Position numbers and translations under genes: made by a program. Shown here in pieces: positions 2,593 to 56,780 of a DNA stretch of 64,000 nucleotides. The notes beneath the pieces were generated by a model. It had not been told where the DNA came from, ran no database searches, and saw only the letters and a list, made by a program, of their open reading frames with translations. Position 1 is the first letter of the stretch. Every line of letters begins with the position of its first letter. Source of the stretch: Natrarchaeobius halalkaliphilus (GTDB taxonomy: Archaea > Halobacteriota > Halobacteria > Halobacteriales > Natrialbaceae); contig NZ_REFY01000001.1 in NCBI RefSeq assembly GCF_003841485.1, positions 558,001 through 622,000 on the forward strand. Direction: 5' to 3'.

Positions 2593-2666
2593 GGGCTCGT
2601 GGTCTAGCTGGTTATGACGCGGCCTTTACAAGGCCGAGGTCGGTGGTTCGAACCCGCCCGAGCCCA
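2593..2666 (+). tRNA. tRNA-Val (anticodon UAC)
   Basis: 74-nt cloverleaf without encoded CCA. The acceptor stem GGGCTCG/CGAGCCC pairs 2593-2599 with 2659-2665, with discriminator A2666. The anticodon stem CGGCC/GGCCG (2620-2624 with 2632-2636) closes the loop TTTACAA with anticodon TAC (valine, GUA codons). The T arm contains GGTTCGAACCC. No intron is visible. Its last 22 nt are repeated twice downstream (see the repeat at 2667-2908). Confidence 0.95.
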
Positions 2667-2908
2667 TATTTCTGCCGCGAACAACTCGTGAGCGGCAGAA
2701 ATCTGTCGCGAGTGGCGGGTTCGAACCCTATCAGTCGCGCGCAGCGTAGCGAGCACGTCTGATTTCGGTTCGAACCCGCCCGAGCCCACTACCTACTGCG
2801 AGCAAATTCGCGAGAAGCAGGTATGGGACCGAAGATGGGTTCGAATGAGACGAGCCGTGCGCACCGAAGCGAGCACGTCTCGGCGTGGTTCGAACCCGCT
2901 CGAGCCCA
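2667..2908 (+). repeat. Two tandem ~120-bp units ending in tRNA-Val 3' end copies
   Basis: Two head-to-tail units, 2667-2788 (122 bp) and 2789-2908 (120 bp), follow the tRNA. Each ends in the tRNA T-arm/acceptor sequence: 2767-2788 is identical to 2645-2666 over 22 nt, and 2887-2908 matches with one change. The units also share an internal second T-loop-like GGGTTCGAA (near 2717 and 2836), the block GCGAGCACGTCT, and a hairpin at the start. In unit 1 the hairpin has perfect 11-bp arms (2668-2678 with 2692-2702). This could be a tandemly amplified att-like site left by integrations at the tRNA, or a repeated tRNA-derived RNA gene. Confidence 0.8.
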
Positions 2909-42050: not shown

Positions 42051-42181
42051 GATCTCAGGGTAGTGGCGGCGGAACAATATCGGTTGCGGTGACGGCGAGG
42101 AGCCGATCTACCGGCCACAGACCCCTTCGTTTCGGGTGGAGACCGGGGGATGTGACTGGAACGGTTCTCGAGTCGAAGAAG

Positions 42182-42254
42182 TAGTCCATCCTGGATTCGA
42201 ACCAGGGTCGAAGCCCCCAGAAGGCTTCAGGATTGGCCGCTACCCCAATGGACT
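42182..42254 (-). tRNA. tRNA-Gln (anticodon CUG)
   Basis: 73-nt cloverleaf on the minus strand. The acceptor stem AGTCCAT/ATGGACT pairs 42248-42254 with 42183-42189, with discriminator A (complement of 42182). Anticodon stem AAGCC/GGCTT encloses TTCTGGG with anticodon CTG (glutamine, CAG codons). T arm contains GGTTCGAATCC. No intron or encoded CCA. Confidence 0.94.
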
Positions 42255-56734: not shown

Positions 56735-56780
56735 ACTCGCTTCGCTCGTTCATGAGCCTTGCTTCGCTTCGCTCAGCAAG
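56730..56780. repeat. Two tandem hairpins with identical 11-nt loops
   Basis: Hairpin 1 has arms CATGAAC/GTTCATG (56730-56736 and 56748-56754), overlapping the argC stop. Hairpin 2 has arms CTTGCT/AGCAAG (56758-56763 and 56775-56780). Both enclose the same loop TCGCTTCGCTC. They sit between argC and argB, where they could affect mRNA stability or translation of the distal genes. Confidence 0.6.

Follow-up and report, generated by a model that had tools for sequence, protein, structure and literature searches.

Why does the 3' end of a tRNA gene recur twice, at almost regular spacing, in the DNA directly behind it? The question is raised by the tRNA-Val(TAC) gene near the beginning of the window, by which we mean the whole 64-kb stretch of DNA analysed here (G000:C1:558001-622000, from a haloarchaeal genome of 3.5 Mb). 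An earlier note on this stretch reported that the last 22 nt of the tRNA are repeated at spacings of 122 and 120, held the repeats to be related tandem units rather than unrelated inserts, and offered two readings of them: a tandem attachment site or a family of tRNA-derived small RNAs. The description holds, since the first copy is exact, the second has a single mismatch (Table 1), and the two units share 76% identity over their last 72 nt. Regarding the two readings, the RNA family turned out to be the better one, and the attachment site the poorer.

The array behind tRNA-Val(TAC) consists of a 122-nt unit and a 120-nt unit, which both close with a copy of the tRNA 3' end (T copy). Within the unit, the parts follow a constant order: a first hairpin (SL1), located directly 3' of the tRNA end, an inverted copy of the end of the T-arm (anti-T), a GC-rich second hairpin (SL2), and the T copy. 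The anti-T of unit 1 is perfectly complementary both to the copy (2767-2780) and to the tRNA itself (2645-2658). The "extra T-loop-like" GGGTTCGAA pointed out by the earlier note is indeed present, but it is not a separate feature, being part of this perfect 14-nt reverse complement of the T-arm. On the tRNA-sense strand, the predicted fold consists of SL1 and a long stem between the anti-T and the T copy, with SL2 as its cap, and its stability is far above that of dinucleotide shuffles (z of -7.2 for unit 1 and -3.9 for unit 2).

Table 1. Features of the tRNA-Val(TAC) locus in the window (A1, alignment of 34 units of many tRNA kinds, picked from a list; R1, covariance model).
Feature	Position	Strand	Support
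tRNA-Val(TAC) gene	2593-2666	+	ARAGORN; Rfam RF00005, 63.6 bits
T segment, last 22 nt of tRNA-Val(TAC), GGTTCGAACCCGCCCGAGCCCA, copied downstream	2645-2666	+	
Unit 1 SL1 hairpin, 11-bp stem, tandem G.A core CGAAC..GTGAG	2668-2702	+	predicted fold
Unit 1 anti-T, 14-nt perfect reverse complement of the tRNA-Val T-arm end	2714-2727	+	
Unit 1 SL2 hairpin module, type CTATCAGTCGCGCGCAGCG..GCGAGCACGTCTGAT	2728-2766	+	predicted fold; helix with covariation in A1
Unit 1 T copy, 22 nt, identical to the tRNA 3' end	2767-2788	+	
Unit 2 SL1 hairpin, core CGAGC..GCGAG	2790-2823	+	predicted fold
Unit 2 anti-T, shorter, TGGGTTCGAA	2836-2845	+	
Unit 2 SL2 hairpin module, type GAGACG..CACGTCTC	2846-2886	+	predicted fold
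Unit 2 T copy, 22 nt, one mismatch	2887-2908	+	
R1 match, unit 1	2713-2788	+	84.8 bits
R1 match, unit 2	2833-2908	+	61.2 bits

Among the families of Rfam 15, tRNA alone reaches the gathering score in the window, and a search of the tRNA-Val array at E values up to 5 returns chance microRNA-like matches only. The other tRNA of the window, Gln(CTG) at 42181-42254, has no unit. Two open frames on the minus strand, 2604-2789 and 2731-2922, run antisense to tRNA-Val and its units (e.g. ...WARAGSNHRPRPCKGRV...) and resemble the spurious proteins often annotated opposite tRNA genes.

Distribution of the units behind tRNA genes

The repeat behind tRNA-Val is not the product of chance, because 15 of the 41 tRNAs of the same genome have a downstream copy of their own 3' end and none of the 41 has one upstream. 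A copy was defined in this census as the tRNA's own last 22 nt with at most 4 mismatches, no further than 450 nt downstream. The tRNA kinds with copies include Lys, Gly, Phe, Val, Ser, Met, Gln, Glu, His and Leu, and several further tRNAs are followed by an anti-T and hairpins with no recognisable copy. Model R1 has matches at 18 places of this genome, and these include the two units of the window. Two matches lying off the listed tRNAs were examined; each stands behind either a tRNA end that has been displaced or an end resembling that of a tRNA. When a loose anti-T...T pattern is searched for in the genome, the tRNA loci are the sole matches.

A unit was also observed at G000:C4:206202-206285 (L383), behind a tRNA-like end, AGTTCGAATCTGCGCCGGCCCA, that is unreported by ARAGORN and Rfam; the tRNA may contain an intron, or its end may have been displaced.

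A search for the unit behind other haloarchaeal tRNAs, which had been proposed in the earlier note, found it throughout the haloarchaea, behind 34 tRNA kinds. Unselected haloarchaeal tRNAs carry a copy in 15 of 51 cases, and tRNAs from the rest of the phylum (outside the order) in none of 55; no upstream copy occurs among the 147 tRNAs of the own-genome, unselected haloarchaeal and rest-of-phylum sets. At the genome level, R1 has matches in 23 of 24 haloarchaeal genomes, with 3 to 28 per genome, and in none of 124 other genomes of the phylum. An exact pattern, made of one SL2 type and the start of the T-loop, is present in at least 119 stretches of named genomes, almost all of them haloarchaeal, and in 75 of the 125 genomes of the family. 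Where the flank is long enough, nearly all of the pattern matches have a tRNA immediately upstream, to which the copy in most cases corresponds; these tRNAs represent more than 25 kinds. Among the orthologues of tRNA-Val(TAC) in 49 genomes, the number of copies ranges from 0 to 3, with at least one in 44 and at least two in 12. Some of the locus sets were chosen by motif; the frequency claims made here rest on the unselected tRNA samples and on the genome counts of R1.

Judging from these genomes, the units form a haloarchaea-wide family standing behind about a third of the tRNA genes. This family is apparently undescribed, as searches of the open-licence literature yielded no description of such units in haloarchaea. 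One contig (L107), filed under the Bacteroidetes MAG QS_9_68_14, carries a tRNA-Val(TAC) of haloarchaeal type with a typical unit, and is probably mis-binned.

Anatomy, folding and reshuffling of the modules

From 173 loci of 34 tRNA kinds, 255 units were excised, with related sequences included, so that the counts given here do not equal independent events. The T copy corresponds to tRNA positions 52-73: identity leaps from background to 0.87-1.00 at position 52 and drops past the discriminator base, and, while the match threshold favours high identity within the copy, it does not favour these sharp edges. The copy has 0 or 1 mismatches to its own tRNA in 192 units, and is nearer to it than to any other tail in 252. 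The anti-T is equally bound to its locus. Its core is found in 214 units (16 among shuffled units), it is specific to the unit's own tRNA (Wilcoxon p 1.7e-36), and it takes a fixed place, at a median of 47 nt past the tRNA end and 40 nt before the copy. This inverted copy of the tRNA 3' end, present in most units, and the tRNA-specific pattern across the genome were missed by the earlier note. The same note had suggested that the units mimic tRNA and could attract RNase Z or RNase P, an idea that is weakened by the copy beginning at position 52. Since the 5' strand of the T-stem is thereby left out, a real T-arm is generally not rebuilt.

The SL1 hairpin is characterized by the core CGARC..GYGAG, which occurs within the first 60 nt of 161 of the 255 units (shuffles, 0.9). 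In 85 units the inner pair is A-T, in 69 it is G-C, and in 7 it is mismatched; the G.A and A.G of the core, to judge by the letters, probably form tandem sheared pairs. A K-turn or K-loop was considered for SL1 and rejected, given that the base preceding the G.A pair shows covariation with the one opposite (A-T/G-C) and is thus paired, leaving no 3-nt bulge.

Several observations bear on whether these parts are constrained as a folded RNA. Folding of 120 units gives a median z of -3.8, with the T copy paired into the unit in 87.5% of them. In alignment A1, 88.3% of the cells are paired, a share that never exceeds 41% once the partner is slid; for covariation, the score is 0.205 versus 0.115 in shuffles (0 of 500), and two-sided changes occur both in the tRNA-end stem and in the SL2 stem. 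At the T-loop purine, which is not an anchoring position, the copy and the anti-T show A-T in 79 cases, G-C in 57 and other combinations in 19. The tandem G.A core lies on the tRNA-sense strand in 217 of the 255 units and on the opposite strand in 2, which is a pointer to a folded transcript, and the motif CGARCGNAGYGAG is likewise found on the tRNA-sense strand 104 times and never on the opposite one. Mismatches in the stem of anti-T and copy are more often G.T (68) than A.C (33), whereas in the SL1 stem the two are nearly equal (16 and 14), which is weaker than expected under a purely RNA-level constraint; as a test between RNA and DNA, this comparison is only moderately informative. Taken from the sequences, the strand bias, the pairing and the covariation favour a folded transcript over a purely DNA-level palindrome.

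In all, the genome holds the hairpin motif CGARCGNAGYGAG at 39 places, as against 16 for its reversed control, and the majority lie off the listed tRNA genes; the window holds an example at 56736-56748 on the minus strand.

The modules are not fixed to a given tRNA. The SL2 type with GAGCACGTCT occurs behind 30 tRNA kinds and some other SL2 types behind 4 to 12, and in every case these types are combined with the anti-T and copy proper to the host tRNA. Within tRNA-Val(TAC), a handful of SL1 and SL2 types appear, by eye, to be freely combined, and both the number of units and the combination of modules differ among relatives. The arrays also grow and shrink: the tRNA-Phe of genome G239 is followed by three identical 122-bp units in tandem and the tRNA-Gly of locus L098 by two units that are 99% alike, which denotes recent tandem growth, and the loci L202, L242 and L241 have undergone the precise loss of SL2 or SL1 between T cores. 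The unit is dispensable, as around two thirds of the tRNA genes do not have one and it is missing behind the same tRNA in relatives.

Competing explanations of the arrays

The reading that we prefer, with a probability of roughly 0.55, is that the two units in the window, arranged in tandem, belong to a haloarchaeal family of structured tRNA 3' trailers, similar to the RtT element of Escherichia coli, whose T parts are kept in register with each tRNA while their modules are reshuffled. By analogy with E. coli RtT, read-through of the tRNA gene would yield a pre-tRNA with the unit as its trailer, and cleavage at the tRNA 3' end would free this trailer, which may then persist as a stable hairpin RNA. 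The purpose of the T copy would be to pair with the anti-T, which could otherwise be liable to invade the T-arm of the tRNA itself. Recombination or gene conversion at the T-loop core, the part common to tRNAs, would spread the hairpin modules and swap them from one tRNA locus to another, and conversion or selection would hold the T parts equal to each tRNA. As to the role of the released RNA, our guess would be an aid to processing, an aid to termination, or a decoy for a tRNA-binding protein.

A different explanation, which we consider unlikely, dispenses with the RNA and takes the arrays for palindromic repeats acting at the DNA level, comparable to REP/BIME. Unequal crossing over would have raised their number, and template switching or gene conversion would keep them palindromic and in agreement with the tRNA. 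Such a process would account for the alternation of T, anti-T and T with hairpin spacers, the mosaic combinations and variable number of units, the near-identical tandem units of L098 and of the G239 tRNA-Phe, the clean loss of SL2 or SL1 from between T cores in L202, L242 and L241, and the similar frequency of G.T and A.C in the SL1 stems. However, the correction of palindromes would have erased the tandem G.A mismatches that 217 of the 255 units retain, on one strand only, and neither the G.T bias of the stem between anti-T and copy nor the confinement of the loose anti-T...T pattern to sites behind tRNAs in the own genome fits this explanation.

The short T runs of these loci have a bearing both on the trailer reading and on a third explanation. 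Their density is 13.3 per kb in the first 15 nt past the tRNA and 10.5 past the last copy, versus 0.75 inside the arrays, so that a short and a long transcript are both conceivable; the runs directly past the tRNA might mean that transcription often stops ahead of the unit. The units could then be regarded as elements of transcription termination or insulation, whose hairpins and T-rich start slow or stop the polymerase and separate the tRNA from the next gene. This enrichment would be in line with such a function, which we nonetheless hold to be improbable: the same T runs are found just past tRNAs with no unit (15.4 per kb), around two thirds of the tRNAs do without the element, and the tRNA-specific forward and inverted copies would be left unaccounted for.

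The idea that the repeats go back to site-specific integration at the 3' end of the tRNA, either as a tandem attachment site or as scars, has a sound starting point, since the 22-nt T segment is a working att site. An insert of 23.6 kb with a Phage_integrase protein begins at the T segment of tRNA-Val in genome G095, and another of 35 kb begins at the same segment in G096. In both genomes, however, the array lies intact beyond the insert, and must therefore be older than the integration, which displaced it rather than made it; with the inserts placed between tRNA and array, the tRNA also manages with another trailer. No unit was found in the viral contigs of IMG/VR searched with two exact patterns, nor in phage records searched with blastn, and plasmid records gave two weak matches to units by the same method. 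Moreover, the units are conserved structured sequences with tRNA-specific inverted copies, unlike the ends of elements. An attachment-site origin of the arrays, the first of the two readings of the earlier note, is thus largely refuted, and we regard it as very improbable. The least probable of all is that the units serve as decoy att sites drawing integrating elements off the tRNA gene: the copies retain the full 22-nt att-like core, and a 5.4-kb gene block of the own genome stands behind two tRNA-Glu units and closes in a further tRNA-Glu 3' part with its unit, but the two inserts studied in other genomes had gone in at the end of the tRNA itself, ahead of the array, integration at this end restores the tRNA anyway, and the anti-T and the conserved hairpins would be left unexplained.

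Two places of the own genome deserve a description of their own. At G000:C4:102805-108684 (L382), the block of 5.4 kb past tRNA-Glu(TTC) and its two units, which ends in the second tRNA-Glu 3' part with its own unit, encodes a transporter set of binding protein, permease and ATPase, a regulator-like protein, and an aldehyde dehydrogenase. Arrays of this kind may help to assemble gene islands. Outside the window, at G000:C1:487692-511954 (L387:434), the 3' end of tRNA-Arg(GCG) recurs without a mismatch 24 kb downstream of the gene, ahead of a decayed region of SL1, anti-T and SL2; the layout suggests an integrated element of 24 kb.

Relation to known systems and significance

The closest known counterpart of these units in anatomy is the repeat behind tyrT of E. 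coli (MG1655 tyrT-tyrV, L381; Rfam RtT RF00391, rttR), the one bacterial locus on which our comparison is based. There, exact copies of the tRNA end recur at regular spacing, in 178-bp repeats that close in 19 nt of tRNA-Tyr. An anti-T matching at 14 of 17 positions is present in each of the examined units (shuffles 0 to 0.0005), three of four examined units have the hairpin CGAGC-GNNA-GCGAG on the tRNA-sense strand, and in the Rfam structure of RtT the anti-T is paired with the copy. Both systems hence consist of tandem tRNA 3' trailer units that close in a copy of the tRNA end, in both the 5' part of the unit pairs with this copy (a predicted pairing in haloarchaea), and both have the same type of tandem G.A hairpin on the tRNA-sense strand. 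They differ in that the haloarchaeal units serve 34 tRNA kinds across a whole archaeal class instead of tRNA-Tyr alone, measure around 120 rather than 178, and have other hairpin sequences, whereas the E. coli copy takes in the CCA and starts later. Model RF00391 has no match in the window between 2560 and 2960 up to E = 5, nor does R1 in the E. coli locus up to E = 1; being blind to each other's locus, the two models do not allow the units to be filed as RtT, and we call them RtT-like on the basis of anatomy.

The REP/BIME elements of enterobacteria are extragenic, mosaic sequences in which inverted repeats alternate with spacers and which grow in tandem. The haloarchaeal arrays share all of these features, but what is repeated in them is the end of the neighbouring tRNA, which varies from locus to locus, and in the own genome the units were found at tRNA ends, with no extragenic dispersal of the REP/BIME kind. 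Another parallel is offered by 3'ETS-leuZ, the trailer (3' external transcribed spacer) of a bacterial tRNA operon that binds sRNA as a sponge. The units would resemble it, by analogy, as tRNA trailers that could persist as small RNAs; to our knowledge, no copied or inverted tRNA end is known for 3'ETS-leuZ. Finally, archaeal tyrosine integrases, such as those of the SNJ2 type, use att sites at tRNA ends (PMC8371274). Their att core is the same 3' segment of the tRNA, but the units come without an integrase, have a conserved RNA-like structure, and are pushed aside intact by real integrations.

A broader and speculative proposal, on the unlikely side in our estimation, is that bacterial RtT and the haloarchaeal units make up a single class of non-coding elements, spanning both domains and located behind tRNA genes, which would share the tandem G.A hairpin and rewrite their ends, forward and inverted, to match each host tRNA. 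Such a class could be selfish, with tRNA ends as a safe haven, or it could consist of trailer RNAs with a conserved role in tRNA maturation.

For genome annotation, the units matter because they yield spurious antisense "proteins" and can pass for integration scars. The haloarchaeal units are apparently both undescribed and uncurated, with no Rfam family of their own, and they raise the questions of whether they are transcribed and excised together with the tRNA, how their copies are kept equal to each tRNA, and why the same hairpin is found in bacteria and archaea. What was supposed to be an oddity of one E. coli operon thus becomes a pervasive feature of a whole archaeal class, extending over 34 tRNA kinds.
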